A DNA stretch of 64,000 nucleotides from Caenorhabditis elegans (Eukaryota > Nematoda > Chromadorea > Rhabditida > Rhabditidae). The notes under the pieces are model-generated. The model made no database searches. It saw only the letters and a list, made by a program, of their open reading frames with translations, and had not been told where the DNA came from. Both the position numbers and the translations under genes were made by a program. This document shows positions 1,137 to 62,008 of this stretch, piece by piece. Each line of letters opens with the position of its first letter. Position 1 is the stretch's first letter. The stretch is taken from the NCBI RefSeq assembly GCF_000002985.6, contig NC_003279.8, forward strand, positions 10,788,001 through 10,852,000, in the 5' to 3' direction.

Positions 1137-4901
<3,765 letters not shown>

Positions 4902-29359: not shown

Positions 29360-31109
29360 ATGGATGTTGTTTTTGAAACTGTGAACTGCCTCGAGTCAAA
29401 TAGAAAGATCATCATTGTCAAGCTACCAGATGGATCTTCAGAAAAGTTCTTCTTCAACGTGACAAAAAGAGCCTTTGAGAAGATTGTCTGCGTAGATGGT
29501 AAACCAGTTCAAATGGACAGTGACCTGACTCCCCATCACTCGGTATGGTGCCCACACATTCATAAGAACATCATTTTCGCCTACAACCACTTACTCCGAA
29601 TGAACCTCCAATATCTTTTCGACTCGGAAACCCTGAGTTTTCACGAAACGAAATGCGATCAATGTCATCTGGATCCGAAGAAATCGACCAATGTCAAGCA
29701 GATTTTGCTCGTCGCGGCGAGCCCAAAAATAAGAAGACCAATTGTTCTCACTATGAGCCAGGAAGGAAGAGTTTTGAAAATGTGTTATGATGAAATTGAG
29801 AAAAATTATGTGGATATGTCACCAACTGAAATTAAAGCCTTGACACAACTGAAGGATGGTTAGTTTTTAAAAATTAAAGAATTGAAACAGTAAATTTGAA
29901 AAACGGAAACGCAGAAAAATGTCAACCTGAATTTTTTTTGCATTTTTTCACCGACTGCAAAAAATGCAATAATTTAATGAGCTGACAGCCCGTCTGAAAG
30001 CATTTCTAAACAGTTTTTCGAGTTCAAAGTGGACCTCTAGTTTAAAATTTTTGTAGGTATCTACATAAAAAACGTACTCGTTCAAATCCCGAATCAGGCC
30101 CAAATACACGTAGAAGCGTTGGACAACTGTCCATTCTAAATCCTAGCTGGATTACTAGTTGAACAAAATAATGAACATTTGACTAACATAAAAAAAAGTG
30201 GAAAAATCAATAATTGGTTCTGCCCATATCTTGGTTCGATTTGAGTGATTTTCTTTAAAACAAATTTTAAAACGAAATAACAATTGAATATTTCAGTGAC
30301 CGCAGCAATGGAAGATCTTACACTGGACAGCAAAGTAATGGAAAGTGACCTGATCCCATTGGTCAAGGAAAAGAGTGTCTTCTTACCACATGACAGTATT
30401 CTAATTGCTAAGAACAAGAAAACCAACAAAATCGGACAATATGTATTCGATAGATATCATCATCAATTTCTTGAGGTAGTCATGTCCGACATCGAAATTA
30501 AGCAAGAAATGCCAAATATCGCGAAGCTTATCAATGTGACAATGAGCACAAAAACTGAGCAAGCAATCAGTATCAGATGTACCCCTGGAATTGGAGAACT
30601 GAAGAAATTCCATTATAATCGGGAGACAGCATCATTTGATCCAATGGAAGAAAAGGCAATTGTTGAGAGTGATGAGGAAATTCAGAGTTTTATTGAAGAG
30701 ATTGAAAAAACGCAGGGTGAGATTAGGAGAAGAATGTCTAATAATGTGAAAAAGATTTTTGCAGATATTGTATGCAAAAAGATCAAAGCAATCCTCTGGT
30801 TTTATCATAATGTGAAACCATTTTTGGCAAAGAAACTTGAGAATCCTGTCAAGAAAAGTTAGTTTTACATACATACTTTAACTGTTTTTTTTTTCACCTA
30901 AAACTGAAATATTTTCAGATAATGACTACAAACGTTACGTTTTCAAACCAGTGGAGCCGGAAGAAAAAGTCGATGATGAAATGGATTCGGTGTCCGAACC
31001 AGAATCTGATTCTCTCTCGATGAGCTCCTCTAGTCGGAGCAGTAGCCGTAGCAGCCTGTCGAGCGATGACTCTTTCGAGATGGTCGTCGATATTGATTTT
31101 GTTGAGTAG
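29360..31109 (+). CDS. CxH-CxxC repeat protein, array member 1
   Basis: I join three exons: 29360-29858, 30297-30857 and 30919-31109, giving 416 residues. The ATG at 29360 is chosen because a CAATTTTCAG acceptor lies directly before it; an upstream in-frame ATG at 29339 is in the outron. Residues ~1-45 are a partial module (KLPDGSSEKFFFN). Residues ~54-160 are a full module: C64, H66, C99, C102, then a QEGRVLKMCYDE strand. Residues ~175-285 are a module that has lost its cysteines. The C-terminus is acidic then serine-rich (SSSSRSSSRSSLSSDD), ending DFVE. No signal peptide or membrane segment. I do not recognise the family; CxH plus CxxC spacing suggests zinc binding. Polyadenylation signal AATAAA at 31122. 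Confidence 0.82.
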
Positions 31110-31138
31110 TGGCTGAAAACTAATAAAATACCCTTATA

Positions 31139-32551
31139 CAGTGCGCGTCAATGTTATAGGACCCCCCTCATTTTTTTCGATATTGGGAAACTGAAAAAAT
31201 TCCATGAAAAACTTTTGTGATATTTGGATTCAGCATGTCAAAAAACCTAGGTTCCTGTGTTTTCACGAGTTTATCATTAAAACTATAGACACACGGCAAA
31301 TATTTCAAAAATTAGGCCGCGTCACTGCTATAGGACCCCCTGGGATTTTCGAAAATTTTCACTGAAAATCTCGATTTTTTCACCATTTTCAAAAAAATAA
31401 GATTGAAAACTGGTTTAAATCTGGTTATTAGCTCAACCTTGTTCTGTTTTCCAAACTTTTGTAATGATCGGAATCTTCAATTTAACAATTTTCTCACATT
31501 TTTAGACGTTGAAGCTGAACGAGAAGCTCACAAGTAACTTTTGAGCTTGAGCTTACATTATCTCATGAAACACGTATTCAAGAATATTCCTGTCAATTTC
31601 TGTCTGATTCCGTTCACAAATAGTCCTTTTGCAGCATTTTTAGTGCTGAGCTTTTAGCCTGTTTTCAGTGTGCTTCTTGATTATGAGCTCATATCTAAGC
31701 TATTCCTTGACACATTTTTTAGAAAGTAGTCAGGGAATGAAGCCCACATTTTTCACTACAAGTACCATAAACGTTGCTTGCTCCAAAAATTTCTGGTATA
31801 GCCTACACGTGAGAAAAGTTTGCGATGGGTTATAAAAAATCTTGGAAATGTACTGTGAATTGAGAATATGAATTCCGTCAATTGTAGGCTATGCCAAAAA
31901 TGTTTGGTGCAAGCAACGTTTATGGTACCTGTGGTGAAAAATATGGGCTTCATTTTCTGACTACTTTCCAAAAGATTAATCAAGCCATAGCTTAGATATG
32001 GGATCATAATCAAGAAGCACACTGAAAACTGGCCAAAAGCTCAGCACTAAAAATGCTACAAAAAATACTATTTGTGAACGGAATCAGACAGAAATTGACA
32101 GGAATATTCTTGAATACGTTTTTCATGAGATATTGTAAGCTCAAGCTCATAAGTTACTTGTGAGCTTCACGTTGAGCTTCAACGTCTAAAAATGTGAGAA
32201 AATTGTTAAATTGAAGATTCCGATCATTACAGAAGTTTGGAAAACAGAAAAAATTGAACTAATAACCAGATTTAAAACAGTTTTTAATCTTATTTTTCTG
32301 AAAATAGTCAAAAAATCGAGATTTTCAGTGAAAATTTTCGAAAATCCCAAGGGGTCCTATAGCAGTGACGCGGCCTAATTTTTGAAATATTTGCCGTGTG
32401 TCTATAGTTTTAATGATAAACTCGTGAAAACACAGAAACCTAGGGTTTTTTGACATGCTGAATCCGAATATCACAAAAGTTTTTCATGGAATTTTTTCAG
32501 TTTCCCAATATCGAAAAAATGAGGGGGGTCCTATAGCATTGACGCGCACTG
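31139..32551. mobile_element. 1.41-kb near-perfect palindromic element, TA duplication
   Basis: The ends are CAGTGCGCGTCAATGTTATA on the left and its inverse on the right, each flanked by TA (31137-31138 and 32552-32553). The two arms, about 670 bases each, are inverted copies along their whole length, for example the CCGTGTGTCTATAG/CTATAGACACACGG pair. Only about 75 bases near 31806-31878 are unpaired. The TA target and CAGTG terminus fit the Tc1/mariner superfamily. No transposase is present, so it is a non-autonomous foldback element. The arms differ at only scattered positions, suggesting recent formation or repair between arms. Confidence 0.85.
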
Positions 32552-33203
32552 TATAACCACTTTTCAAAAAAATATATTACCCTCTAAAACAAACAGACAA
32601 CACTTTTTGCTCACTTTTCGAGACATTATGAATGTGTGCAAAAAGAATTGTTAGTTTAAATCTTCTTTTGACCCTTATCCATGTTATCTCAAGTTACCAC
32701 AGAAGTCATATGCTCTTGTAGAATACAGTCCCCTGTACATTGTGAAAAAATGTAGATATCTTGATGTATCTTCCTAAGCTACACGATTGTTGGTTAACAT
32801 TTTTCGATTCAATAAATTTATCCTGCAGATTAAATGTAATAAAACTGTAACATCAATAAAAAGCTTCAGGTCTAGCAGACAGCAGTTCAGCAGACACACT
32901 GAAATAACATTTGTTGTGCGAAAAAATCCCGACTTTTTGTAGATCAAACCGTGATAGGACAGCTTGACACCACGTAGCATGTTTCGAAAATCTTAAACTT
33001 AACATTAAGCAATTGAACATTTGGTTGATATTATATCTTGGGAACTTTGGAAGAATTTAAAACGTAATCCCCACAAATGACAGTCCATCTTGAAGCAAAC
33101 CGAATCCGATCCCAAAAGGACCGACATAATTGTTCGCTCACTTTCAATTGATTTTCCTCCTCATATGCATCAAGGATTCTCGTATTGTTCAAAAGGTTCC
33201 ATT

Positions 33204-33768
33204 CAGGGGTGTGCGGATAACCGATTTTTTCGGCTAACGGATAAATCGGCTAATGCCGATTTTTTGAGAACCGGCTAACGTATAATTCGGCTAACGGCTA
33301 ATTTCAAAATTTTCGGCTAACGGCTAATTCGGCTAATCTCAGTCATTCAAATCGGCTAATTTTCGGCTAATTCGGCTAATTCGGAAAATATTCATTTGGT
33401 TAAGCTTTTTTTGTCCATTCTGTTAATTCAGGTTTTGGGTTAATTTTTTCACTGTTATTGAGCAAATTCAGGGATGAACGACTGTTCAAATAGGAAAAAA
33501 TCATACAAATTCACCACATTTTGTTTTCCAAAAAAATATGTTAGTTGAATTAGCCGAAATAGCCGATCGGCGAATTCGGCTAACATCGGCCAATATCGGC
33601 TAATGGATAACTACGTATTAGCCGAACTGCCAAAAAGTCGGCTAACGGCTAATTCGGCTAATCGGTAAAAAGGTCGGCTAACGGATAATTCGGCTAATAT
33701 TAGCCGAGTTAGCCGAATTAGCCGATCGGCGAATTCGGCTAACATCGGCTATTATCCGCACACCCCTG
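33204..33768. mobile_element. hAT-like non-autonomous element with 8-bp target duplication
   Basis: The termini CAGGGGTGTGCGGATAA and TTATCCGCACACCCCTG are perfect inverted repeats. GTTCCATT flanks both ends (33196-33203 and 33769-33776), a perfect 8-base target duplication, the hAT signature. The interior is largely made of short CGGCTAA/TTAGCCG repeats in both orientations and carries no reading frame for a transposase. Confidence 0.9.
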
Positions 33769-34799
33769 GTTCCATTGCTATCGATTCTATATTTGCATGG
33801 AGACATCATAAAGAGTGTAAACCTAGATAATATTTGACCTTTAACCGTTACCTTCTCATAGAGGGAGTTGCACAATGAGATAGTGAGCAGAGAAACGGGT
33901 GACGTGGCAACTATCTTTGCACACGGATGGGCTCGGAATTTCGGGGGCTCGGAATAAATTGACAAGTTAAAGACTTGAAAAAAAGAAAAACATGTTGATA
34001 AGTAGTTATTTTAATGTGAAAAAGCAAAAAAGGAAAATCGAAGATTAGATAACCTATTTTTTAAAAAAATTCAATGAACATCCGAAGTTAGCAACGAAAA
34101 AGTGAAACCTACAAGTTTTTAAGCCCTGCAGTTGAGTTTTACTGAAAATTGACAAAATGTTCAGCATTTTTTGATGATTACTTTTCAATTTCCAGAAGTT
34201 AAGCTGATACGACGCTATTTTATGCAATCAGGATATTCAACAATATTTCAATAGGGATCTATAAAACAGATAATCATGTTTCAATTACTCCCAAACTCAT
34301 TAACATCTGATATTTATTTATTTATTTTGATACGATTAGTTAATCGTGTAAGACATGAAATACCATACATATATACAAAATACAAAAGCATACATATATG
34401 CAAAAGTCTTTCGAGAACTACTGCTACAACCCACTCCAACCAGTTGACCTCTCTGCAATTTGGCCAGTTGTCCACCGCCTCTCATAATCCAACCCTATAT
34501 TCAAATACGACACGTCGTCTATCGGACCATCATCTCCTCTTCTTTCTCTTTTTGCGCGTCCTCAATAACCTGCGTCTCTTCCTCTCCACACTATTTCTAC
34601 GGAGAACCGTGTCGATCGAACGCTGCACACCATCGGCCCCGTCCTAGTCTGTGTGCTGCGCAGAGTGGGCTCATTCGAGATGCAGATCGACCTGCTCAGC
34701 AGTCTTCTTTTTCCGATTTGTTTTTGATATTTTCTTTTATTATGGTTTTTTCTTTCATATTTTAAAAAAACATGTACTGTATTTTCTTTCCCTTTCAGT

Positions 34800-35380: not shown

Positions 35381-38300
35381 ATGTCTGTATCTACTCTTCT
35401 CAAGACCGAATCCCATCCAGAATCTGTAATGGAAACTGATCTGACTCTACTCTACTCTCGTAGATGCAAAACCAATGATATCATTATTTTCTGCAAAAAC
35501 GCCGCTCGTAATGGAGGAGTCTTCAAGTACCAGCTCAAAACTGAATTGTTGCCATGGAGACGTGTTGAGTGTGTCTGCTGTGAGTACAAGGAGCAACGAC
35601 TTTTGGAAAAGATGGTAGAAATGATGAAGGACATACCATTAGAGTTGGAGCCAGAACTCGAAGTTGATGAACGCAGATTCATGAATGTTAATTTGGAAAT
35701 TATGTGCTCCGAGTACTGTGAGCAATGCGACGAAATGACCATTTTTGCGAAGGACACTGATGAGGAATTCCCAATGACATTCAATCCCAAAACACAGTCA
35801 TTTACCTACTCGAAATGCAAAGAATGCATTGAGAATACCAAATTTGCGATTCGCCGTCACTACTTGAATCAACAAATCTCCAAGCTTGCTGGTACTCCTT
35901 TACCATACCAGGATCGGAAGGGAAAGGAGCTTATCAGTTTGCAAGTTACCTGGCTGAACAAGGAACAAGGAAACATGGAGTATTTTGTGAATCCAGATGG
36001 AAATATTTCCAAATACCAATGGAATGAGAAATTCCAGTATTTTGATCATGTTAGAACGTTGGATGTGGAAACATTGGCTTCAGGATCAATCAACAAAATG
36101 CTCGGAATTGTTGAAGAAAAGTTCAGTACTGCATTTGCAGCTCGTATGCGTTTGATCCAAGTGAACACGGAGCAGCTATTGTGGGGTAAGTGTCATTCTT
36201 TGAAAATTTTGAAAAAAACCTTTTTAAACACAGTTGACACAGTTTAAAACACAGTTTAAAAACACAGTTGAAGCATAAAACTTTTAAACTTTCAGCTGGA
36301 GAACGAATGAGTTCATCCCAACTGGGCTCACTTCCACCAGTCTCAAAGCCAGAAAAGAAGCTCGTTGTTCTTCAAGATGGCACAGAATGTCTTGTAATCC
36401 GCAAGGATCGTGTATCGTCGAATGGACTCTATAAGTTTGATACTATTTCCTTTAAAGATGGAAGTGTGAAACCATACCGTCGGAATGATACCACCCGTCA
36501 ATATGAGCTCTTCAAAAGTGAATATTTTGAGGCGTTTGGTCTCTTCTCAGTGGAAACAGAAGTAGAAGAATCTGAGAGATATTCCTTGGATTGGGATCTT
36601 ACTCCAAAAACCATTGTCTCTTGTACCCATAATGATCGTACCCTCTTCACAGCTTTCAACAACTTCACTCAGACAGATGGATTCTATTTCTACAACAGCT
36701 CAACAGGCCATGTTCATGAGCATTCCGGATGCTCCACTTGTAAAAGCTCAGTCATCGATTCATCCCAAGTCATTGCCTCTTCAATCTCTCCATTCACAAG
36801 ATGCGCGATCATCTTGAAAACAAATAAAGAAGGTCGCTTCATAAAGGTTGGATTGAATGAGTGTAGTAGAAAGTATGAAGCCATGGCTCCACTGAAAGTA
36901 ATGAATGTCCATGTACCAGTACCACAATCGAATGGATGGAGGAAAATCCAAACTGTTGAAGATGTTCTGAATGTGTATGGAAAATATCAGGTGGAAGCGA
37001 ACAAAAAGATGGTTGATGAAGCAGTCGAAAAGCACCGAGAGGCCATTTCTTCTCTTGAAAAGGAATGCAACATGCACTTGGAGAGTTTGAAAAAGATGAA
37101 CGACTCGAGAAAAGAATTTGAGGTTCTGAATGCAGAATTGGAGAAGAAGGTGTTCGATTTGAAGAAAGTCCTTGAAATGGAGCAGGGGAAAATTGCAGAA
37201 ATGCTTAAGAACAAGGAGAGAGAAGCCGCGCATAAGAAGCAACAAGAGATGATAAATGGTAGGTTTGATCTGAAAATGAAGGGGTACAAGGGTTCTTTTT
37301 AGACTTTTAGGCTTGGAATTTCGCCAATTTTTGAAAAAACTTGACTTCAACCATTTGATTTCCAATTTCAACTTTTCGTCACTGTAATACTAATTTTCGT
37401 CAACTTTTCCTAGCTATAAGATTCTTTAGTCAACTTTGGCATACTTTTGCCACTCCGTTGTAAAATTGATTGAAATGAATATAGTTTGGTTTAAATTAGC
37501 GGAAGTTGACGAAAGTTGGCCGTACTTTACACTCAACTTTCGCCAACAATCCTAACTTGTTGACTTATTATTAGCGTCTAGTCAACTTACACCAAGATTT
37601 CGCCAACTTTTACAAACTATTGAAGCTTCTGTGGATGCTAGAAGAAACTGAAATTAGTTGGAAATGGCAAGCATTAAATACTAATTTTTCAGCTCCCCCA
37701 GTCTTCGACTTCAACCTCTTCCCAAAATGCTGTAGCTTCTGCCCACATATTGGCCAATTCGTCATCACTGCGTTCGACGAGGTCACCAAGTCTACAAGAA
37801 GCTACATTTTCAGCCCAAAAACTGCTCATTTCCACTATCAATCCACCTGCGAGCTATGCCCACGAGTCATCTGCTATTCAACTGTTCTTCCAAATTGGAC
37901 AATTATGCCGATGCAATGTGAGAGGTCTAAGTGGCCCTGCCTACTTTTGACAAACCAAGAAGGTCGACTGATTAAAGTTGCATTTGATGCAAAAATCAAT
38001 ACATTCATCGCAGTTAAACCATCTCAAGTTCTAGAAGAAATTGTAGAAGTTCAAAATTCTGGAATGACTACCAAAAAAACATTGGAGATTCCTTCTTATG
38101 ATACAACCAGACCAGTTTTGTATCCAAATTTCCGAGTCTATTGCTCTCACATTAAAGACGTCCTCATCAACGCCTACAACTCTCACGCTAAATCGAATGC
38201 CTTCTACTATTACAACAAAATCACAGGATCCTTCGAAGAACATGTCGGCTGTGATCATTGCTCAAAGTCAAGCTTAAACCACAGTATCCCATCACTACAA

Positions 38301-40245
38301 AACGTTATCACATCAACCAGTCCTTATACTGATAACGCAGTCATTCTGGTGTCAAGCAAGGATAGAAGTCTCAATATTCTTGGATTCCGCTCGAATAACA
38401 TGGGATTCGCCAATTTTCCATACAATGTCGTCATGCTGAAGGAGGATCTGAAAGGTTCTGAGGAACCACTAACCGATTTGACTGTGGAATCGTTGGTGGA
38501 AAAGGTGGAAACATTGGAAGTGACCAAGAAGGTTGAGGTGGAAGATGATAGTGATTGCTTAGATGAAGATGAAGATGAGGAGGAATATGAGGATGAGGAT
38601 GAGGAAGAAAGTGAAGAAGATGAAGATGAAGAGGAGGATGAAGATAGTGAAGAGGATGAGGACGAAGAGGAATATGAAGATGAAGAGAGTGAGTATGAAG
38701 ATGAGGAAGAGGATGAGGAGGAAGAAGAAGAGGAGGGAAAAGAAAACAACGAAGAAAAGAAAGTACAGAATGAAATTAAACATTGTTAGTTATTTTCTCC
38801 GACTACATAGAAAAAACTAACATGACAACACCTTTTGCTCCCTTAACTATACTCATTTTAAGACATTTTAAGATTTTTTAATTTCTAAGTTTCTACGTCT
38901 GATGGTACTAGTGAGTCTTCATTTAGGACTGAAAGTTTGAATCTAGAAACTTGTTTCTTGGCTGAGTCTTTATACAGCTCCGAATATCTCCTTTTTTTAG
39001 TTTTTCAAAACAAACAAGTATTTCCCTAGCTTACAATTAGGCCTTTTGGCTTACGTGCCGATTTCCTTAGGCCCAGGCCTCGAATTTAGCCCTAGATATG
39101 CAACCTGTTCTCTGCTATTCGCAAAGTGAAAATTCAAAAAAGTGCGCAATACGTGTTGTCAATTTATTTATATCTCTAATCAATAAATATATACACAAAG
39201 TTAGCATGGCTTTAGCCGCAAAACCGATATCAAATAGTTTTATTGATAATTTCATCATTAATAATATTCCTAAACTTTGGGTCAAACAAACTTGTCTAAT
39301 TCACTTTTCCTTTCAGATATCAAACTTGTCAACTCGAAAGCAGCCATATTTGATCAATTAGCAATAGCATTCTCGTTAGCAAAACCTGAAACTCAAAGCA
39401 ACTTTAAAGAAATGTTCAGCAACAAGAAAGCATTCAACGAAAGGGTGGGTGTGGAATTTGACAATAACACCTGGAAAAAGATGCAATCGGTGCTAGCGAA
39501 GGTGACCAGAGAAGATGACGTTGAATCGACGACTACTGCTCTTGAACCATCTGATATTGAAGATAATGAAGATGCTGAGTACACATCCACCGCACTGGAG
39601 CCTTCTGATTTTGAGGACAACTGTGATTTTGAATCGACTGCTACTGCCGTGGAGCCATTGGACTTTGAAGAAAGTCTTTCTATGGATGTTACTCAACAAA
39701 ACGAATCGTTTGAGGGCGTGGAGCATGTCGAAGCTGAAGATGACACACAATCCACTACAACTGCTCTTGAACCATCTGATATTGAAGACAACTGTGACGT
39801 TGAATCAACTACCACTGCTGTGGAACCATTGGACTTTGAAGACGATAATTCTCTGGATATCACCCAAGAGAGCGATTCTCTTGAGCTCATGGAGCATGTC
39901 GAAGCTGAAGATGACACAAAATCTACCACAACTGCTCTTGAACCTTCTGATATTGAAGATAATGACTTGGAGCTTGTCTCTGATCTATCTGATGATAATA
40001 GTAGTATTTCAATGATCTCTTCCACATCCACTGCTATTGAATTCTCAATCGCCGACGACTCGGGAAGTTCAATGGGAAGTGATATTTCCTATTTGGATAG
40101 AGATATGGATTTTGCTTCTGATAAAGAATCTCTGGTTTCTGAATCGAATTATCAGGATTTTATGGATCCAACTATTCATGCTTCATTCACTGCGTCGCAA
40201 ATCGCCGAAGCCGATCAAAATTTTCCAGGATGCATCTTGTCTTAA
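35381..40245 (+). CDS. CxH-CxxC repeat protein, array member 2 (long form)
   Basis: I join four exons: 35381-36185, 36296-37258, 37693-38784 and 39317-40245, giving 1,262 residues. A TTTCATTTCAG acceptor lies upstream of the ATG. Exon 1 has two divergent modules (FCK..CVCC; MCSEYC..CKEC). Exon 2 has one module (SCTHNDR to CSTC, with YFYNSSTGHVHEH) and then about 90 residues of coiled coil. Exon 3 has two full modules (FCPHIGQ to CELC; YCSHIKD to CDHC) and a long Glu/Asp tail. Exon 4 is an acidic STTTALEPSDIED repeat domain. Exon 3 can also end in place at a TAG (38787-38789), so exon 4 could be alternative or a separate gene. All introns are phase 1. No signal peptide. Unrecognised family, probably intracellular. 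Polyadenylation signal near 40387. Confidence 0.75.
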
Positions 40246-40575: not shown

Positions 40576-40944
40576 TCAAGCAACACAAGCATGGTTAACA
40601 CATTTCTTGCAGAAAATGCCGCACATTCCAAAGGTTTTTTCAGACTTCTTGTTAAAATATATCTGATGGCACTTTCCAAATGCACAATTATGACGTGGCC
40701 CGCACTGGTTGTCGTTGGCACATCTGGTTATATCCTTTCTCGGAGCACACTTTCCATCAATACAATACTCGATCATCCAGTTACATTGAGCTACAGATCG
40801 GCAGCTTTTTATCACGTCAGGAAGGGTGATGCACTGTTTGTTGATGCATGTTCTATTATCGGAACAATCTTTTGTGCTTGAGCACGTTGCGTATTCTTGA
40901 CTTTTGACAAGTAGAATTGCAGATAAAAAACATGGAAGGATGTC
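40576..40944 (-). CDS. Cysteine-rich secreted protein (terminal exon; 5' end unresolved)
   Basis: The minus-strand exon 40576-40944 reads open from a CAG acceptor at 40945-40947. It begins with a signal-peptide-like DILPCFLSAILLVKSQ, then about 100 residues with regularly spaced cysteines: CSSTKDC, RTCINKQC, KSCRSVAQC, YCIDGKC, RCANDNQC, NCAFGKC, MCGIFCKKC. The repeated C-x5-C...C-x4-C layout resembles the EB-type cysteine modules common in nematode secreted proteins. A short first exon with the ATG must lie upstream (higher coordinates); I could not identify it. A TATATAAGC box on the minus strand at 41511-41520 and GATA sites nearby mark a possible promoter. Confidence 0.7.
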   Translation of the reverse strand, partial: DILPCFLSAILLVKSQEYATCSSTKDCSDNRTCINKQCITLPDVIKSCRSVAQCNWMIEYCIDGKCAPRKDITRCANDNQCGPRHNCAFGKCHQIYFNKKSEKTFGMCGIFCKKCVNHACVA

Positions 40945-43909
40945 CTGAAATTATAAAATTTTGTAAGATTTCGTGCACTTGAAACTTTAAGCTTATATCT
41001 TGGTTGCTATTGGTTTTATAAAAACTTTTTCAACTAACAAAATACTTGCAAAGTATTTTTCTATATTTTGGATATTAAAATTTTTTTGATAAAACTTGAG
41101 ACAACCGAGATACAAGCCGTCAAAAATTCACCTGTCGAAACAGTTACAAGAAACAGTTAAAACAAGTTTTATTGAATTTTAAAATAAATATTCTATAATG
41201 TTTTTACTTGAAAATAAAATTACAACTGAAACTAACGTTCCTATTTGCTTTTAAAATTACATGAACTTTTAGCTCAGGTACGCTTTACAGTCTGAAATTT
41301 ACAATGCGAATTTATTTAAAAACTTTCCAGAAGAAGCTTCATTGCTTCTAGATATTGAAATAGAAAACAAATACTATAAGACATTTCTCAAAAAATTGAA
41401 AATTTATACGAAGCGTCTAATCGAATTATGTAATCGAGTTCAGAGCTGGCTGGGGTTTGTATCATTTTTTGATATTAAATGAAAAGGATAGAGCCATCAG
41501 ATAGGTGATGGCTTATATACAATATGAAGTAGGCGGAGAATCAATAAGATAAGTAAAAATGACGGGGGATAGGAATGCAATCATAATTGAATGGTGTAAA
41601 AGATAACAAAACAACATTAATAATGTGAGGATTGCGAGTGAGTCACAGGGCAAAGAGTACGATCGCGTACATTATGCAAATTTTGATAAATCGAATAAAT
41701 TTTGATTGTCGAAGGGCATTTTAGGATCAGCGACTTTTTTGACGCCTTATATCGATATCAATGGTGGGCATTTGCGTTTCAAAAATTTTTTTTCTGGAAG
41801 TTTATCGATTTCGACAGATTTATCAAATTCAGATGATATTATGTATTTCGCTCACCATTTTTTAATGCTTGGCATCGCAATTTGTTTGAATTATTTTTAC
41901 AGAAAGTTGTCTCCTGTTTCTGAAATAACTGAAAAAAATGCTTCTCTAAATTATAAATACATTAATACACAATTTTTTCCAAAGTTTGCAACATTTGTTC
42001 ACTTTATTATACACTTATTGCTTGTTTATCATATTAAATTTTTAAAATAATTTCTATAAAATTGACATTTACTCGTGAATTCCCTGCGACGTGGCGACTG
42101 ATTTTTTCAAAAAAAAAAACCCCTTTATTGGAAAATTGAAGATTCAATCAGTTCTCAATTAAGAAAACTTTGATTTTCTTATCATAATAAAATGTAAGTT
42201 TTATTTATTTGGGGCGGTGTTTACAGAGTAGCAACATGCTTGAAGAAAACCATCAATTGAACTTTTCAGGTTGTAATGGAATATATGCTACGCTTATGCT
42301 AGGCATAAATATCAACTTCAATGAGTTTGGACTTTTCGGAGGTTAATCAAGACGTGGATTTTGGACTTAAAAGTTGTGGAAGCTTATGTGTAGTGTATAC
42401 CGTCGGAATTGCCAAGACATCCTTCCTGAACCCTCTCTTCCTCTGAACAGCCAATAAACCGTTCTGAAAGTAGTGTAAAAAGGAAAAAGACAAACAGGAT
42501 ACAATTTTGAAACCCGGCAACTGCCGCAATTGCCAATTGCGCCGCGCACCCCTGGTGTAGATGTGGTGTATCGCGACGTACCATTGAATTCTGTATTGAT
42601 TATTGATTCTGACGGAAATCCATAATCAACGATACGTCATCGATACAATGCTAATTGTAAAAAATCTGATTTCAACGCGTGGGCCGTAGAGTTGGCATGG
42701 TGCCAACTGATAAGGAGAGAGGAATACTGGCAAATTTTTTGACAAGGTTTTTCCAGATTGGAACAGATTTGCCAAAGAAATAGGTGTAATTGTCCTTCCT
42801 AAGCAAAATCATGGGTTTGTCGCGCTCTTTGTTGGCGTTTTCCAGAAATTGTTCTTTAAAGTGTATAATAACACCCCTTTCACTTCCTTTGAATCAATAC
42901 CCCATTTCTATTGGGCATAACATTTTCCGAGGCACGTTCCTCTCTCGTTCGTTTCCTCTTTCTCCGTCACTCGGAAACCACCCAGTCATGCTTGTTTGAA
43001 TTGAAATAGAGCGCGTTTGCTGAGGGCTTATTAAAAAATCGAAGAAAAATATTGACTGTTGTATGAGACTTTAAGAAGTGAATATTGATTATTTTGCTTT
43101 CGTATATCAGTGTAAAACTTGCGCTTATCAATAAATTTTCAATTTCTTCTTTCAATGTCCTCTTTGCATCTTTTTCATTTCGTTTGTTGCATGTTCATTT
43201 TTAAAAGCCTGTTCTCCGCATTCAATGTGTGTATGTGTAATATATTCAAGTGTAAAGACGACGGAAAAATTAAACGTTCATTTCTTTGAATATTACAAAA
43301 CCTGAATACTTGTTCAAAGAAAACCGAATCTTCTCAGACAGAAAGCTGTGAGATTTTTTCCTAATTTTTTCTTACATTTTTCTTGAAAGTTATAAACGGC
43401 AAGTTTACCAACATTTTTTAATTTTTTATTCAAAAATGTTAAAAACCAAGATATGGGCGGTGTCAATTGAAATTTAATTTTAAAAAATAACTCCGCCCTT
43501 ATCTTGGCTATTATGCGTTTTCTGTTCAATTTTCTCATGGTAAATGGATTTTTTAAATCATTCAAAGTAATAAACATCTGGCACAATTTTGGAAATTAGA
43601 GAAAAAAAATGTTTAAAGCTAAGATTTGTGCGAATATTTTTGATGGCCAATTTTAAAATTGAAAAATTATTGCCAAAAAATTTTCCTTATATGTACATGT
43701 TTTATTAATATAACTTTAAATTCAAAATTCCAAGATGTTTTCCCATATTTTTTCTGATATGGATTTTTCTGAAAATGTATGTCTAACTTTTGATTTTTTC
43801 AACTATTGGAATTTCTTAAAATCGTATATTTTTATTTTCTTACCTATACCTTCTCTTGAAATTTGAAAAAATATTTTCAGAGTCGGCACTCCCCAACTTG
43901 AATTCAATC
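40945..43909. other. 3-kb intergenic gap
   Basis: This contains the probable promoter of the minus-strand cysteine-rich gene (around 41440-41600, with TATA and GATA-like sites), a short hAT-type end at 42512-42554, a GC-richer, promoter-like block at 42680-42985 and an inverted repeat at 43440-43510 (CCAAGATATGGGCGG / CCGCCCTTATCTTGG). An AT-rich open frame at 41706-42050 lacks splice or start signals and is not called. Confidence 0.4.
42512..42554. repeat. Fragment of a hAT-type element end
   Basis: CGGCAACTGCCGCAATTGCC followed by GCGCCGCGCACCCCTG matches the terminal pattern (short inverted CGGCAA/TTGCCG units ending CACCCCTG) of the 33204 element's relatives. No opposite end is seen nearby, so it is a solo remnant. 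Confidence 0.5.
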
Positions 43910-48985: not shown

Positions 48986-50877
48986 ATGTCCACAGAACTT
49001 ATCACACAATTTGACAAAGCCCTTCAACTAAATGTGGTCCTAGTCCGTGACAAGAAAACGGATCCTTTCAAGAAATTCGTCTTCGACTCCAAAACCAGCC
49101 AGTTCAAAGAAGCCCCAAAATCCGTCAAAGTCATTGATCTTCTTCCTCTGTATGAATCCGACTGTGATCGTCACAAAAAGCTGATCTTCTGCAAAAATTT
49201 GATGAAGAATCGGCAGATATTCAAGTACGCCTATAATACCGAAAACGGGAAGTTTCAAAGAGTGCAGTGTACGTGCTGTGAATATAAAAAAGAGCTTGTG
49301 GGATGCCATTTGAAGACTATAAAGTTGCCAGAAAATGATGAATTAGTTGACGAAGACAGCGGAAACTTTCTCTGGATTCAGCCAAAATATTCATCAATCT
49401 GTGTTAAAACTAACAACATGGCTGTGATTTCTAGAACTTTCCCTGAAAACTTCAAGCTCGACGCTTACACTTTTGACCCTGAAACTCAAAAATTCGAGTT
49501 ATCAAACTGCAAATGCGATGGATGCTCAAATATCGACTATTCACTGAGCTCTTTTGAATTTGGAGCTCAGGGAATTGGATATCAAAGGACTCACAGAGAT
49601 CAGAATGGACTTCCTCTTGTCTGTTTATCAATTACTTATAAAAATGATAAGACAGGAGTTATGGAATACTTTAGTGATCAGAATGGATTTATTGGAAAGT
49701 ATAGGTTTGAAACAGACTGCTTTAGATTAGTAGAAGAGTTGGATGTGAGGGTTCATAAATACTTGGAAACTTCGAGAATTTCTACAAAAAAACCAAGATT
49801 ATTGATTGATGATCAGCTATTTATCCATTACAAAGATAATTGTAAGAAACTTGACATGCCAATCTACTTTGGATATCATTTTGAAGAAGGGAAAACTCGC
49901 AAATACTTGTTCAACAACCGAACATTACAATTCGAACGTATTAAATGTCCAGATTGTATATTTGATTCGAGGAAAATTGTGAGATCAAGAGCTCTCACTA
50001 CTGATCTGGCAGTGATCAGATGTGATCTAACGAGCAAGATTATCAAATTGAAGAGGAAGCCGATGGGAAGAGTTGAGAAGTCAATTGAAACGAGACATGG
50101 ATTTTTGCCGTTGGGAAAAGCACCGATTCGATTTTTGAAGTACTTGGCAGTAGAAGGTTAGTTGGTATTCCATGGGACTTACTCCCAAAAAACACATTGA
50201 AAATTATTAATTTATAATATTAAATTATTACTAAAAACTTGTTAAGACGGTGAATTTTTGAGCAACCTTTTCAAGCTTTTTATTGAAAGTAAAGCTATCT
50301 TCAGAAAGTACACAATTTTCTCTACATTTTTTTCAATATAAATTTCCGAATAAAAACAACTTCTCTGCCTAAAAATGGCCCTTGTTTTTGGGTTTTTTTC
50401 AAATTAAAAATCGTATACGTACGCTCTTAAAATTTGTTTTTCAACAAAAAAAGGCAACTTTGTTCTCGAATTCAACAATTTTTTGAACGTTCCACACGAA
50501 AAATTAAATATTTTCTGACTTGAATTTCAAAACACTCATCGAAAATTTACAAGAAAACCTTTATTTCAGATATCTTGAAACACTACACTCCAATCCGTCG
50601 AAATCCTTGTGATCCTCAATATTTCCAATCATTCGATTCCAAAAACGAGGAAAAATGGTTTCTACTCAATTATTCCAATTTGTGCGAAAAAAAGAATAAT
50701 ATCAGCGCAATGATCATCGGAATGGATGGAACTATTCGAAATGTTGTACTTCAAGATAAAATGGAAAAAGAGCTGGAGCAATTTGAAGATGAAACTTCCT
50801 GGAGTCAAGATAGTGATTACTCATTTTTAAATGAAATTGACAGAGAATTAACAAATACTGATAAGAAAAATGTTTAA
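48986..50877 (+). CDS. CxH-CxxC repeat protein, array member 4
   Basis: I join two exons: 48986-50156 and 50570-50877, giving 492 residues. A TTTTTTTCAG acceptor ends one base before the ATG. The N-terminal half parallels exon 1 of array member 2: DCDRHKKLIFCK to CTCC, then a PETQKFELSNCKCDGC module, then GVMEYFSDQNGFIGKYRFE, which matches GNMEYFVNPDGNISKYQWN in member 2. A last module (LFNNRTLQFERIKCPDC) is followed by a basic strand LKRKPMGR. The second exon ends in a short acidic tail. The intron is phase 1. No signal or membrane segment. Function unknown. Polyadenylation signal at 50996. Confidence 0.85.
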
Positions 50878-53120: not shown

Positions 53121-56100
53121 ATGAACACCAGTGAATACCAAAATCCTCCTTCAAAATACTCAACATCAACCCAAACACCCCAGCTACCAAAAGTAGCCCG
53201 CATCGTACCAAAATATTCAGTCGTTTGCGAGAATTCACTTGAAGTTGTTCTCTTTGGAACAGATAATGGAGTCTTTGGAAAGTACATCTTCAAGAATAAT
53301 GAGTTTCTAAAAGCTCCAGATTGCGTTTGCCAATCTTGTTTGCGGGCTGATGACATCAACCTCTTTACTGATTCGGTGGAAGTTCAGGGATTGAGAGCAA
53401 CTGACAAATTACACAGAGGCATTGATGGACAACGGTTGATGTGTATTGGAATATCATGGATTGGATGTAAGCAGTCAGGAGTTATGGACACATTTGTGAA
53501 TATACATGGAATAATTGGAAAGTACCGAAAAACACCGGAAGGCTTGATACTGAAAGACGAAAACAAGGCCATTGCGCTTCTACCAAATTTTCCGATTCAG
53601 AATACTCAAGCAATTATGGAGAAGGATTTGCTTCTTCTCAACACCAAAATATGCCCTCATGTATCCCAAAAAATCTACTTCTGCAAAACCACAAAATCAG
53701 AAAGTGTACACCAAGTCGTTCTCAACAAATTAACCCTCCACTTTGAAATTATCAAATGTTCAGTCTGTACTTATGATAAAAACTTGGAATTGGAGTATTA
53801 TGACAAGAAGACGAAACTTTATGCGGAAACGGTGAGATGTGAGACGACGGAAAAGTTTGCAATTGTGCGATCAGCTAAAAATGAGAATATTTTTCTGTCG
53901 ACTTACTGTCCGAAGACACTTGACCTAAAACTCCAAAGCCCAGTTGCAATGGAAGAGAGAAAATTGACAAATTCAGGTTGGTGTTTTGAATACGTTCTTG
54001 CATGTTTATTTGATGAATTGCGAATTTTTCATAACTTCGAATTTTATCTTTCAACTCTCTTTTTCTATAGCCTAATAGATATTGGGTTGGAAGTTGGTGG
54101 GGCAAGGGTAGTATCAAGGTACTGTCGTGACACGGAGGTGTAATGTAAGATTGTTGTAGGATTACTGTAGTTTTTGAAAAAAAAAGCGAGTTTCAGTCTT
54201 TTGAAGATGTGTTAAGTTCTTGTGAAAAAATAATAAAAAATATGAACATTTATCTGCAGTATTTTCCAGTAAATCACAAATTCCAGTCAGTATTTGGTGT
54301 ACTTTTTAATCATTTCAATAAAATTGAACATTGATTCCAAATAAACCAAATTATTTTTTTATACTTTACGTATGGTATATATGAACTGTACAAAATAACT
54401 TTAAAATACGATAATTTCAGAATCAAATAATTGGTACAACACATCAAAAAGTTGCGAGGAGAATATCCTCGAAAAAATGTGCCCAGCCAATGAAAATCAC
54501 CAAACTCTTGTTGCCACGGAAGGCGCAACTTTTGGCACAATATACTGGATGATGAATGAGAATTATAAAATTGATCCATTCAAAATTGCGCCAACAATTC
54601 CTGGAACTGGAACATTTCTCACCATCTTGTCCAGTTTGGACGTTTTTAAAAGCCGGAAAGTGATTGCAAGCAAGTTTACTTTATTCGGTGAGTTTTCGAA
54701 GAGTTTCAATTTTTAAAAAACTGAAAAGAATTGCAGAGAACGTGACTCCTAAAGACTTGATCGATCACAGATGTGAGGATTGTGAGAACAACGTGCGTCC
54801 TACAGACGCATGGCTTGAGTCTGATAAAGGTAATCAATTGAACTGATCACAATGTAGAGTAGAGTAGAAAATTTGGTTAAGCTAATTGTTTTTCAGTCTA
54901 CCATAGAAGCCCCGTAGAACTATTAAAAATTTGAGTAAAAATAATTAATTTTCAAATCTAAAAATCTGAACATCTGCTTCAAACATATTCGTTTAGTACT
55001 ATTTCGATGCAACTAATTTGCTAAATATTTATATTTGTAGCCAATTTCTGAACCAACTGAACATTTTCTGATAAATCTTGAGCAAGAAATTGGCTTCAAA
55101 AGTCGCAATGAATATTTTTAAGGAAAACCTACTCTACGCAATCAAATGCATCCGGATTACCACCCGACTTACAAAAAGAATTCCGAATATGAAGATGCAC
55201 AGGAGGATTTTGATGATATTGAGCTGAAAGTTTTCCAAAAATTGTGTAATATGGAGGACAACTTGTTCAAGCAGATAATCGATTTTGAAAAACCAAAGGA
55301 ACAGTTTACCGCACCACCACACCCACAAATGACTCACCGTGTTGCCCAACCTCATTATGTTCCAGTGGAATATTTCAATCACACGATATCAGACTTGCTT
55401 AGACAAATATCAGGTCTGCAGCATGAGCAAGCTATGCAAAATGGACAAATGCAGCATATGGCCAATGAAATTCGAAGCATTGGAAATGCAGTTTGCAGTC
55501 TACACTCATCACAACTACAACAGCCGCCTAACAGTGCCGCAAGCATGTTTCCGTACCCGATTCATCCGATGCCTTCAACCTTTCCACAGCAAGCACCTCA
55601 TGCTCCAAATGCTCCTCAAATGACAGCCAACTCAATGCAAAGCATCGCAGAGCTCATACTCGCGCAAAGAGGAATCGCACCAAGAAGAGAAAGACGTCTC
55701 ACAGAAGGTCCTAAAAAGTATAACAGAGTGATCCCACCTTCACCCCGAATTCCAAGTTCAACTGATAAAAAGGAAATGCTGAAAAAATCGAATGATCGGT
55801 TTGATAAGCTTAGAGAAGAAGTTTCCGATGTAAGGACACAATTGTCTGGTTTGGAAGGTACGTTGTTTCTGTCAGACATTTTCAACTTTCTAGAGCACCC
55901 CGCAAGCTTTTTCTCGCACACTCTCAACCTTCTGTCGCAGAAATTTGTATAAGTATAATCACGTGCAGACGACTATACGATCTCTAAGGGATCCTTGATG
56001 CTTTGAGCTTGAAGCTTTTGATCTTCAAACAGGACAGAAATCAAATTTGGAACTATCAAAAGGCATTTAGCGCTCAAAAAATAACGGCGAAAAAAGATTA

Positions 56101-56380
56101 GAAGCGCGTTAGCTACCAAGAAAATAAGCTCGCCAGAAAAGTATAAGCCCCTATATTTCCAGACACTACTTTCAAAAAGCCGAAAAAGCTGCACTTCCTT
56201 GAACCAGACGAAGAATCAGAGAGTGAGAATTGAAATGATAAATCTCAGTTTAATTCTCAAGTTTCAGGCGACGAGAACGGCAATGATGTGGACGAATTTT
56301 CAGAAGCTGATGATGATGATGAGGACGTGGATCGAGAAATGAAAGTTCTTGTCGAGTCACTCAAAAACCGCGTTCAATAG
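53121..56380 (+). CDS. CxH-CxxC repeat protein, array member 5, with extended C-terminus
   Basis: I join six exons: 53121-53976, 54421-54687, 54737-54829, 55123-55857, 56163-56222 and 56268-56380, giving 707 residues; all introns are phase 1. Exon 1 holds the family modules: FGKYIFKNNEFLKAPDCVCQSC, then GVMDTFVNIHGIIGKYR as in members 2 and 4, then ICPHVSQ to CSVC. Exons 2-3 carry a short further module ending CEDC. Exon 4 is different: Gln/Pro/Met/His-rich, ending in a coiled coil (DRFDKLREEVSDVRTQL). The end is acidic (EADDDDEDVD). I could not tell whether exons 4-6 are one gene with exons 1-3 or a downstream gene starting at the ATG at 55146; matching phase supports the join. Function unknown. 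Confidence 0.7.
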
Positions 56381-57620: not shown

Positions 57621-58799
57621 ATTTTAAATTGTCTAAAGATTCTCTTTATAATTATAATCAAATACCACTAGATCTTTCCATTTATTCTCAAGATCTCATC
57701 TATCATCATATTAGCGTATGAATCGTAAAATCTCAAAAAATGTTTGTTTGTTTTTTCTGGACCTTTTTTTTTAGCTCAAGCTCAAGCAAAAAGCTCAGTT
57801 TGCTCGCTTTTTGTTTATTATTTTCAAATAGCTCACAGTTTTCAACGTCTCGCAAACAGTTCTTTTTTTATTCTAAACCATTTTTCCCTCATTTTTACAC
57901 TTCAAATGTCGATTTCTATAGCTTTTTTGGTTGTTCTGGAGTTAAAATTTAAATAAACTAGATATTGGCTAACCTACATTCGATATGTTCTTGAGATCAT
58001 TAGATGTCTAGAATATTAGGTCAATTGACAAGAGGACTTTCTTACATATTGTCACACTATAACAGGTGCTGTAAGAGGAGGCGATGTCTCAAATGGTAGA
58101 CTGTTGTAAAAGGAGAATATCGTGAAGAGATAGAGATGTACCAAAAATAAAGAATCGTAAACTTTCCGATCGATCAAAATACATTCCTTCCCATCTACAT
58201 CGTTAATGCACTCCCTCCAGACTCCACCCATAAAAAACCAATCAATATTTACTCTAGACATCAATGTCTCTCAATTTCCTATTGTGTCTCTAATTATTGG
58301 AATATTTTCCAGCGTCCGAGAGCGCACAACAATCTGGAAACACAAAATGTAGTCATTCAGTCTTCAATTGTTTCTATTGTTTGGTCGAAGGCCCCTTTCT
58401 CATGTTTTATTCTTTTATTTTTCCTTTATCAGTCTTTATCTCTGTTTACGTAAATAGGAATTACTTTTTGCCCTCAATGTCAGCTAAATTATTTTACTCC
58501 GAAATTAAAAATTGCCTTATGAGCAGTCTGCTGAAACTTTTCAGACCTTGTTTTAAACCAAAATTTCCACATGTCAAAAAAACCCATATTTTTTCTTAGT
58601 AGAGCATCAACCCAATTTTCGCTACTCCAAGATTATCTTCCTGTATAATATAATTTGCACAAAACCGGCCAAAAAACTGAACAAATTTTAAATTGAAAAA
58701 GCAAAATGTGTTGTTCATTTCCATATCCTCGTTTTTTTTTATCTTTTATATTTCGATTCATACCAAATATATTTTCAGATTGATTCAAAATTTCTCAAA
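57621..58799. other. 1.2-kb intergenic gap
   Basis: Pyrimidine-rich, AT-rich sequence with no convincing gene. An acceptor-like TTTTCCAG at 58305-58312 opens into a short open frame to 58599 that lacks conserved motifs; it could be a non-coding 5' exon. A TTTTCAG acceptor ends at 58780, just before the start of array member 6. Confidence 0.35.
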
Positions 58800-61700
58800 A
58801 TGATCACTGGATATTGTGGTTTCTGCAAGACCGACTACGTCGGAGTGGATCACGGAAATAAGTGCTATTACAAATACTACTACGACTACGATCTCGAGGA
58901 GTTTATGCCACTGAAGTGTCTCGACTGCCAACCAAAAATCACCGAGAAGAACCTTTTTCCACAAGAAGGAACATTTTGGGATCCGAAGATGCAAAAAGCC
59001 GTGATGCCATTTCATAATGTTGTGACAAATTGGATTGAGTACTACATCTATGATATCAAGGAGAAGTGTCTCGAGCAAATTGAACCAGTGGTTCCACCGG
59101 TATCCTATGATCCAACTCCAGTGGGCGATCGGATTTGCATTGTGGACTCGAAAACTGAAACTATCTTGATTCGTCGTCATCCAGAACATGGTCATGTTTG
59201 TACTCAACAATTCATCAATGGAGAGTATCAAGATGTTCCAAATACAAAAGTGAATACTCTTCAAATGAAGGAGCTAAAGCGGTACGGTCAATGTAGAAGT
59301 CTCACTCATTATCTCAGGCTTCCAATTCTCAATACAAGCTACTGCTTTAAAAGCGATCAATATATCGTTCGGGTGCCGGGAAGAAACAACGAGAAGCCGA
59401 AGGAATTCTATTTTGATAGAGAATTCAGCTGTTTCATGCCATCACTTTTAACTGTACCAGAGGACATTCTATACCCTGAGTACTCGGTTTGGAGTGAATC
59501 CCTCAAGAAACATGTCACATTTACCGCAGTCTGGAATGGAAGAAGCGAGATAATTGAGCAGTACGTGTATAACTGTGAACAAGGACAATTTGAACAAGTA
59601 CATGTACCGGAGCTTGTCTACGATCCAAATCATGAAGTTCCAATGAACATTTTGTTTATACAAATGTCAAAAGACAGACCAATTGTGATTATGAAAGATG
59701 AAGATGGAAATTTTGTGAAACAAGAGTACGATTCATTGATTGACTGCTTTGTAGCAATTTCACCAAAAGACGCAAAGATTCTTCCACGCGAATACGACGA
59801 GAAACTTATATATGGAAAATACGGTGAGTAAACTTGTTTAAAAAATTAAAAATTAGATTTATTTTGAATTTTTCAGGTATGGCCATTTATTCCATTAAGC
59901 CAGAGCCAGTGAAGAAAGTTGGTGGGCCATTTGGAGGTGTCAAAGGAGGATCATTCGAAGGACTTCCAGAAAGACCAGAAAATGGATTTTCATTTGAAAC
60001 TGAAAAAGAGCAATCTGCATCGACTGGTTCAGAATCACACGATGAGCAGGAAACTGTAATTGAAAGCGAATCAATAACTGATTTCCTTTCACGAATTCTA
60101 GGTAAGCCTATTCTATTTGATCTTATTAGTATTACTATCTAATTTTCAGGAGAAGATTGGCTTACTCCAAAGCCGCTATCTACAACTTACCAGAAACCAT
60201 TGAAAAAATCCAGTGTCCATGATGAATCTGCTGACGAGATTGACCTTATATTAGCTAAGAAATCGAAGCGCACAGCTGTACCAACTATTTCTAAATCTGA
60301 TGAAGTTGAGAATGTAGATCCTCCAAAAGAATATGGAAATCTCGGTAAGCTTTATATTAGTGCCCCTACAGTACTCCCACTGACCTTAACTCCAATTCAC
60401 TCACGAGACAAAAATTAAACTTGAAACATGTCTTTTTCTCGTTGTTGTCCCAAAGTTTCATATTTAAAGTTTATATGTAAAGGCAGAAAAAAGTTTGGAC
60501 TTTTGAAATTAACATTACTCTAACTTTAAAATTTTGAGAACTTGCTCAAAGACTGAATCAAAGCCGAAATATGCAGATAGTCACATAACTATCGGCTGCA
60601 ATTTGATGCAGATTCTGAGCAACTTAATGAAATGTTTGACCAAAATTAAGTTTTATTTCAGAAAGTACATATATTTCTCAAGACACAAATATGGCTAAGT
60701 GGCTTATATACAACTAACATTTTAATTTTTCAGAAGTAGATCATGAAGCCATGCTTCACCAGAGACCACTGAGGAAAGTTGCGGTTGTCCAGCGGGAATC
60801 CGAATCTGCTTACGAATCTGAGCAAGGATCAGATGGAGAAACATCGGAAGAATCATTTTTAGAAAGAGCTTCTTTATTTGACGAATATGATAGAATGATT
60901 GAAATTCTGGCAGAAGAATATGATACACCTGGTTAGTTTTTTTTCTTTTGACGGTATGGTTACTTGACTTAAGAATAGATAATGCAAAAAACAAGAAGTT
61001 CCAAAATTACCAAAAAATATTCGCTTCATTTTTCAGACGAGCAAACTCCATGCACCAAATTTGAGGAATATCCTGACGAATCTGATGAAGAATCCGATCA
61101 ATCAGATGACGAATCTGACTTTTCTTATATGGCGGCACCTTCTGAATCTGAAGATAGCTATGATAAACTGGTTGAGAATTTTTCGCAGGATTATCAAAAA
61201 CTTGGTATGTTATTGAAAAAGGTTCCCACTGAAATTTTCGGAAAACTTCGGATCTAGGAAAAAGCCAGGACTGAAAAATTTCAGGGCATTACTAGTGGAC
61301 ATTTTGCCAACTAAATTAAAATTTTTATGATGAAAATTGTTTTTCGGATAACGTGATCTTGGAAATAATCTTGAAAATCTTTCACAATAATTTCTGAAAC
61401 TTTGCAAAATAATTATGACCTAATAATATTTTTAAATTATACTAAAATCTCCATTTTCAGTCCGTAAAATGTCATTCACCAAAAATGGAGATCAACAAAG
61501 GCCCTTGAAGAAAGTTGGTGGACCATTTGGAGGAGTCCAAGGAGGATCGTTTGGAGGATTTGCGGAGACCAAAGGCAATGGATTCTCTTTTGAAAAAACT
61601 GCCGAAGTTGAATCCAGCAAAGATCAACCAATGAAGAAATTTAATTTTGATGTTCAAGACTCGGATCAATCAGGTCTCAAATCGAAAGTTGTATCGGATT

Positions 61701-62008
61701 CCTATGAGTATGATAAAGTCATGAAGACTCTTCAACAAGAATATGATCAACTTCGTAACATCCTATCAAAATATCAAAAGCCGCTGAAAAAAGTTGGCGG
61801 ACCATTTGGAGGTGTTAAAGGTGGATCATTCGAAGGATTGCCACAAAGGCCAGCCAATGGATTTTCGTTCGAAACTGAGAAAGTTCAATTGGATGTTCTA
61901 TCTGATTCGGAGGAATCTGATGAACAGCAAACTATAATTGCGACTATCGCGAAAACATCCAGTATTTTGTACGAAGAGTTCATGAAATTAATTGAATTTA
62001 AATTCTAA
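58800..62008 (+). CDS. CxH-CxxC-like repeat protein, array member 6, with GGPFGG tail repeats
   Basis: I join six exons: 58800-59823, 59877-60101, 60150-60344, 60734-60931, 61037-61204 and 61461-62008, giving 785 residues; all five introns are phase 1. Exon 1 (341 residues) is a divergent set of modules: YCGFCKTDYVG to CLDC with YKYYYDYDLEEF near the start, then modules that keep the YYIYDIKEKCLEQIEP and YVYNCEQGQFEQV strands but lose the CxH. Exons 2-6 are acidic and repetitive. The motif KKVGGPFGGVKGGSFEGLP, with NGFSFE following, occurs three times (about 59915, 61510 and 61787). Separately, YDKLVENFSQDYQKL-like segments recur near the ends of exons 4, 5 and 6. A TTTTCAG acceptor lies 20 bases before the ATG. 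Polyadenylation signal at 62085. Function unknown. Confidence 0.83.

Follow-up and report, generated by a model that had tools for sequence, protein, structure and literature searches.

The SEPA-1 family of C. elegans has been described with 11 members, including sepa-1, vet-2, vet-6 and ZK1053.3, and C35E7.1 (vet-2) is present in the published list (PMC6534287). Among these proteins, SEPA-1 has been studied in detail as a receptor for the selective autophagy of germ granules; it was reported to self-oligomerise, to bind PGL-3 and LGG-1, and, in somatic blastomeres, to deliver PGL granules to autophagosomes. Mutants of vet-2 and vet-6 showed less removal of PGL-1 from UV-damaged germ cells; the effect of vet-2 was modest (p<0.05), and SEPA-1 itself was dispensable in gonads in the same paper. 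In addition, vet-6 has been named among very early transcripts, and C35E7.5 was given a cluster label identical to that of sepa-1 and vet-6 after Hsp90 RNAi. A second described system is the 'uncharacterized cysteine motif' (UCM), found at the N-terminus of CEH-86 and in three C35E7 ORFs; in the text available from that source, the limits of the motif were left undefined, no similarity beyond Caenorhabditis was reported and SEPA-1 was not mentioned (PMC4448998). No paper connecting UCM with SEPA-1 was found in our literature search.

Here, we analyzed a window of 64,000 nucleotides, which we infer to be the cosmid C35E7 region of C. elegans chromosome I. Between positions 29360 (first ATG) and 62008 (end of the last stop), six genes on the + strand contain a common repeated module, in agreement with an earlier note on this DNA. 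All gene models were made by hand from GT-AG introns and open frames and are thus predictions from sequence alone, and gene names, both here and for the second cluster described below, are putative, as they were assigned from position rather than from an annotated record. G1 (29360-31109, +, 416 aa) has three exons (29360-29858, 30297-30857 and 30919-31109) and consists of a half unit, a CxH..CxxC module (29519-29845), a cysteine-free module in exon 2 and an acidic/Ser tail; C64, H66, C99 and C102, previously noted as its ligand positions, are the same in our model. G2 (35381-40245, +, 1262 aa) has four exons (35381-36185, 36296-37258, 37693-38784 and 39317-40245), with five Cys-type units followed by an acidic repeat tail; its third module, G2m3 (CTH..CSTC), lies at 36592-36912 (+), and modules G2m4 and G2m5 at 37710-38444 (+). 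Since exon 1 resembles G4 and CEH-86 and exons 2-3 resemble G3, G2 may be two genes rather than one. G3 (43910-46620, +, 646 aa; exons 43910-44573 and 45344-46620) is related to G2 exons 2-3 and contains an N-terminal cysteine-free half unit, three Cys modules and an acidic tail. G4 (48986-50877, +, 492 aa; exons 48986-50156 and 50570-50877) carries three cysteine-containing units and one cysteine-free unit, and G5 (53121-54846, +, 410 aa; exons 53121-53976, 54421-54687 and 54737-54846) carries two units. A series of ORFs downstream of G5 (55146-56380) was left out of the member count; these ORFs were tried as part of G5 and dropped because the reading frame failed. Finally, in G6 (58800-62008, +, six exons, 785 aa), the N-terminal unit is of the C4 type (CGFC..CLDC), two modules lack the CxH/CxxC set, and GGPFGG repeats are found at the C-terminal end.

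To assess chance similarity, we used a profile made from the seven Cys modules of G1-G3 (the Cys-only profile) and scored it against 2787 six-frame ORFs, which represented the window plus loci fetched after single-protein searches. Matches were obtained for G4 (E 3.7e-9), G6 (1e-8), G1 exon 2 (2.1e-4) and G5 (7.2e-4); G2 exon 1 reached 0.15 only, and the best non-family ORF scored 0.91. The bare pattern C-x(1,3)-[CH]-x(26,42)-CxxC occurred in 16 of the 2787 ORFs, 13 of which we counted as family ORFs, compared with a mean of 4.6 and a maximum of 10 ORFs in 50 shuffles. It is therefore just modestly enriched, and the proof is carried by the profile. A shared module of about 100 residues, as claimed before, was thus found, and it is better described as ~50-residue units, with two sheets per module. 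A 50-residue unit profile made from ten window units gave three units in G1, five in G2, four each in G3 and G4, and two each in G5 and G6, which agrees with the earlier estimate of two to about five copies per protein. The N-terminal C4 unit of G6 was picked up by the pattern search in addition to its two profile units. Several of the units counted in G1-G6 lack cysteines yet retain the strands, as had been suggested. Pairwise identity of the modules to the first module was low (12-31%), and the earlier reading as a tandem amplification is supported. Module and unit profile searches of the 20 kb to the right of the window revealed no unit above chance.

No Pfam family scored over its curated cut-off in any of ten array ORFs or in any of ten further ORFs (eight from the second cluster, the CEH-86 locus ORF and G2 exon 4), the best sub-threshold match (E 0.0014) reaching 19.4 bits where the cut-off was 25. 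Sequence searches of solved structures gave no meaningful match, either with the module alignment (best E 0.45) or with one cluster protein (best E 1.4). The proposal that the family was unrecognised therefore holds with respect to Pfam, but profiles join it to both UCM and the SEPA-1 family, of which vet-2 = C35E7.1 is a member.

Whole-genome single-protein searches placed the strong relatives, among the matches listed, in the array itself, in a second cluster and at a single locus on chromosome II. The second cluster contains nine genes around top-1 (chromosome I, 13.24-13.31 Mb). With the Cys-only profile, eight of the nine scored between 1.4e-13 and 1.6e-7 and the ninth 0.0046 among the 2787 ORFs; the unit profile found eight of the nine on the first pass (best 7.1e-16), and the remaining gene joined on the second pass. 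In the reverse direction, a profile of the two G6 modules recovered all nine genes (1.2e-23 to 1.1e-11, 2787 ORFs) and led back to G3 (1e-7) and G1 (1.4e-6) and weakly to G2 (0.007) and G4 (0.04); G5 and G2 exons 1-2 were not among its matches in the same ORF set. Pairwise similarity was weak (G2 modules matched one gene at E 0.22, and G3 exon 2 matched two genes at 4e-4 and 2e-3), and the link between the array and the second cluster thus rests on profiles. A separate match at 8.14 Mb of contig C3 (E 0.26) was rejected, being outside the family by the Cys-only and unit profiles and reaching 0.62 at best with the G6 profile.

Within the second cluster, a KIX match adjoins a family ORF approximately 3 kb from a topoisomerase I match. 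We take top-1 to be M01E5.5 and SEPA-1 to have a KIX domain. This neighbourhood fits the published assignment of sepa-1 to M01E5.6, and the family gene beside the KIX exon is our sepa-1 candidate. It was the weakest second-cluster match of the Cys-only profile (the value of 0.0046 above), scored 7.9e-15 with the G6 profile, joined through iteration as well, and showed 38% identity to a cluster neighbour (E 6.6e-52). As the KIX match at this candidate was the only one on chromosome I, none was found in the array, which differs from the candidate in this respect. G6 is the window gene closest to the second cluster and is therefore probably vet-2 (C35E7.1), a name taken from the published family list.

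The chromosome II locus (2.429 Mb), with a homeodomain-like WFRARR stretch downstream, is a candidate for CEH-86. It matched G2 exon 1 at 3.7e-22, G4 at 3.5e-21 and the unit profile at 4.8e-8; G5 was connected to it via G4 only (7.8e-13). Thus, the array module appears to be UCM, with the CEH-86 locus and the three published ORFs identified by inference, and G1, G3 and G6 extend the motif. HOCHOB, another cysteine-bearing and so far Caenorhabditis-specific motif of PMC4448998, was considered and dropped, as it is described there as two homeodomains joined by a cysteine linker, not as beta sheets. Taken at the level of sequence profiles, these comparisons show that the array genes share a common ancestor with the nine-gene cluster and with the CEH-86 candidate locus.

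An AlphaFold2 model of G2m3 with short flanks (36586-36918) predicted two four-stranded beta sheets in series (pLDDT 87.7), resembling propeller blades. This prediction raises the possibility that each protein is one closed small beta-propeller of about six blades, serving as a generic interaction platform unrelated to autophagy. The two module halves resembled each other distantly when family-wide profiles were compared (P 6.6e-5, probability 64%), as such a propeller would suggest; however, they were not convincingly alike in the ten-row profiles alone (P 0.045, probability 1.2%), and on balance we regard a closed propeller as rather unlikely.

The model also bears on the cysteines, for which a four-ligand Zn-binding fold had been proposed. 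In its DSSP string, CxH lies in the turn between strands 1 and 2 and CxxC follows strand 4, so that by topology the two pairs should stand at opposite ends of a regular meander, and a single four-ligand zinc site per module is doubtful. Some of the residues do co-vary: of the 34 units that have the first Cys, 22 also have the last one, and none of the 11 units lacking the first Cys has the last (p 2e-4, relatedness of units not corrected). This co-loss, together with the first recognition of the motif beside the homeodomain of CEH-86 and the suggestion of several metal-binding fingers (PMC4448998), would agree with a DNA- or RNA-binding zinc-finger family. Nevertheless, we consider such a family unlikely, as the predicted pair of beta-meander sheets contains no finger, the first Cys showed no clear association with the first Cys of CxxC (p 0.07; 1.0 without gapped rows), and in many second-cluster units the strands are retained although the ligand set is incomplete. 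Among the units, two versions can be told apart, one bare and one with potential metal ligands (CxH or CxxC ... CxxC).

The profile match to the second cluster and the presence of C35E7.1 in the family list make the array look like a cysteine-rich wing of the SEPA-1 family. The two share the unit, by profile in both directions, the two-module layout and the chromosome, whereas G1-G5 are more cysteine-rich and have two to five units. The array genes would therefore be SEPA-1 relatives, a group already recognised in C. elegans, and not an unknown kind, and we consider it probable that they represent the C35E7 wing of this nematode family, built from ~50-residue beta units that are each predicted as a four-stranded sheet. 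The modules would most likely be self-assembly and cargo-binding repeats for clearing germ-granule proteins, providing the surface for both activities, and the cysteines, where present, might brace the units through metal binding. The array genes, presumably expressed around the oocyte-to-embryo transition, may supply variant receptors or condensate organisers, and binding of their products to PGL-3 or LGG-1 is putative, by analogy with SEPA-1.

The earlier note had suggested a lineage-specific immunity or germline-conflict family instead. In this reading, the proteins would be toxin/antidote-like or pathogen-facing, and their ancestry shared with SEPA-1 would be incidental to their role. The tandem array with low identity between copies, the acidic or repetitive tails and the restriction of reported UCM similarity to Caenorhabditis are all compatible with it. 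However, the studied relatives work in P-granule autophagy, infection is absent from the titles of the 15 papers found with the term C35E7 (one of them, on deep-sea fauna, apparently unrelated), and in a paper titled with innate immunity C35E7.5 carries the label of a developmental cluster. In these sources we found no support for immunity, and we consider an immunity or conflict family very unlikely; the germline relevance survives as germ-granule handling. Beyond the SEPA-1-family reading itself, we tentatively suggest that UCM and the SEPA-1 family could form one superfamily with a new beta-blade unit and a separable metal-brace version, in which the array would be the cysteine-keeping branch with condensate receptors for different cargoes and CEH-86 a receptor module joined to a homeodomain.

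Although SEPA-1 is well studied, the second-cluster proteins fit no Pfam family over cut-off. Joining the UCM genes to them defines a repeat for which the fold of one module is predicted with confidence. Approximately 16 C. elegans paralogues (the six array genes, the nine second-cluster genes and CEH-86) become available for the study of cargo choice, and the cysteine-bearing branch is a place where the role of metal is testable. Finally, a long inverted repeat lies directly 3' of the G1 stop. It fits the 3'UTR of C35E7.6, which has served as an ADAR reporter, and G1 is therefore possibly C35E7.6.

The window spans 10788001–10852000 of a 15,072,434-base contig, presumably chromosome I of C. 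elegans N2. The array consists of six + strand genes (G1–G6, 29360 to 62008), whose models were drawn by hand from splice signals and have frames open throughout. The repeat array described in the earlier note is real, and the residues named there for its first member, G1, match our gene model exactly. Nine copies of the ~100-residue CxH..CxxC module could be aligned over 114 columns, with 12–31% identity to the first one. We searched 2787 six-frame ORFs with a profile of the seven cysteine-bearing modules of G1–G3 (Cys-only profile); these ORFs came from the window and from loci fetched mostly after single-protein matches (among the few exceptions are 20 kb right of the window), and all E-values apply to this set rather than to the genome. 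For G4, G5, G6 and G1 exon 2 the E-value was about 7e-4 or lower; G2 exon 1 scored 0.15 and the top non-family ORF 0.91.

Whole-genome searches with single proteins (seven contigs, 100,286,401 bases), in which match counts are lower bounds, revealed strong matches in at least two places besides the array: a second cluster at 13.243–13.308 Mb on chromosome I, with nine genes after merging of neighbouring ORFs, and a locus at 2.429 Mb on chromosome II. The second cluster surrounds the sole topoisomerase I match (13,295,039–13,295,728). Direct matches between it and G1–G5 were weak (E 0.22 for G2 modules, 0.02 for G4, 4e-4 and 2e-3 for G3, and 5e-5 for a second-cluster protein against G1); those of G6 reached 4.8e-20. 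In the 2787-ORF set, the Cys-only profile recovered eight of the nine genes (1.4e-13 to 1.6e-7) and, at 0.0046, the ninth, a sepa-1 candidate. A two-module G6 profile matched all nine (1.2e-23 to 1.1e-11) and, within the array, G3 (1e-7), G1 (1.4e-6), G2 (0.007) and G4 (0.04); G5 was absent among its matches in this set. Profile comparison of sequences shows the array and the second cluster to be homologous, and a fold was predicted for one module.

At the sepa-1 candidate, a two-module ORF that bears array-type units (13,298,963–13,300,732 of the chromosome I contig) adjoins a KIX exon (13,298,550–13,298,780, E 1.1e-11); of seven KIX matches, no other lies on this contig. We infer that both belong to one gene, and the combination would then be unusual. 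Downstream of the chromosome II locus lies a homeodomain-like WFRARR stretch, and the locus is probably ceh-86. Repeat-like translated stretches were seen beside this locus and in the sepa-1 candidate.

CEH-86 and three ORFs of cosmid C35E7 have an 'uncharacterized cysteine motif' in common, for which no similarity was detected outside Caenorhabditis (PMC4448998). The SEPA-1 family has 11 members, including vet-2 (C35E7.1), vet-6 (F44F1.7) and ZK1053.3, sepa-1 being M01E5.6 (PMC6534287). Contrary to the earlier note, the family appears to be a recognized one: the motif was already noticed in print, and the array is probably a wing of the published SEPA-1 family, of interest to nematode germ-granule specialists. 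A literature search found no paper uniting CEH-86 or the motif with SEPA-1, which is absent from PMC4448998, and the link may already be in print. What this analysis adds is the profile-level union of the cysteine-motif genes with the SEPA-1 family, together with the predicted unit fold.

The published role of these relatives is autophagic P-granule clearance (SEPA-1, PMC12005284; SEPA-1 family, PMC6534287). SEPA-1 self-oligomerizes and binds PGL-3 and LGG-1 (PMC12005284). PGL-1 removal after UV was impaired by mutation of vet-2 (p<0.05) or vet-6 (p<0.001), and sepa-1 itself was dispensable for it (PMC6534287). Very early embryonic transcripts include vet-6 (PMC4267929), and Hsp90 RNAi lowers C35E7.5, sepa-1 and vet-6, which carry a common label 2 that we read as a cluster number (PMC5659845). 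The modules may form an assembly and cargo surface. The region of SEPA-1 for PGL-3 binding and self-association is reportedly about residues 39–160, which on the sepa-1 candidate would presumably cover the first module. For the immunity role put forward in the earlier note, we found no support beyond array-like evolution.

A tree of 29 modules had firm support at 5 of 26 inner branches. In the second cluster, seven of eight first modules grouped together (92/93), as did the full set of eight second modules (82/85), both below the firm-support level; G2 and G3 paired firmly at two of three module positions (100/96 and 96/84). These groupings suggest an old origin for the two-module layout, with G2 exons 2–3 and G3 being duplicates.

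AlphaFold2, given one module and an alignment of ten rows from the window, yielded mean pLDDT 87.7 and pTM 0.77 (pLDDT range over five models, 76.0–87.7). Strands were predicted at 5–13, 18–25, 30–37 and 42–46 in the first half and at 54–56, 64–67, 74–79, 85–91 and 96–99 in the second, which we read as two four-stranded meander sheets resembling propeller blades. The halves were distantly similar in family-wide profiles (P 6.6e-5, probability 64%) and not alike in ten-row profiles (P 0.045, probability 1.2%). A profile of the ~50-residue half, or unit, matched family ORFs one to four times each, and cysteine-bearing units alternate with bare ones in the second cluster. Among 51 units in an iterated alignment, 34 had the first Cys and 33 the first Cys of CxxC. 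Of the 34 units with the first Cys, 22 also had the last Cys, as did none of the 11 lacking the first (Fisher p 2e-4; 45 units having a residue at the first position, gaps scored absent). The second ligand (H or C) was likewise associated with the last Cys (11/1/11/22, p 6e-4), these p values ignoring kinship among units. The first Cys showed no clear association with the first Cys of CxxC (p 0.07; p 1.0 without gapped rows). The predicted topology would put C13/H15 at one end of the first sheet and C49/C52 at the other, which conflicts with part of this covariation.

In the G6 tail (59906–61880), a GGPFGGVKGGSFEGLP-type repeat recurs in three similar copies, which may be disordered assembly motifs. 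An inverted repeat at 31163–32528, with fragmented arms of about 680 nt (88–95% complementary), begins 54 nt past the G1 stop and is the only long one found in the whole window; it is consistent with the 3'UTR of C35E7.6 that has served as an ADAR reporter. Degenerate cggctaattcggctaa repeats were seen by eye at 33200–33770, and a cysteine-rich, possibly secreted minus-strand ORF (40576–40950) lies between G2 and G3. Left of the array, an SPT16-like gene (1242–4901), presumably an F55A3 gene, and a FER-type tyrosine kinase (23004–24573, minus strand), probably C35E7.10, named FER kinase in the literature, were recognized by eye, and a tRNA-Asp gene is located at 19204–19275.
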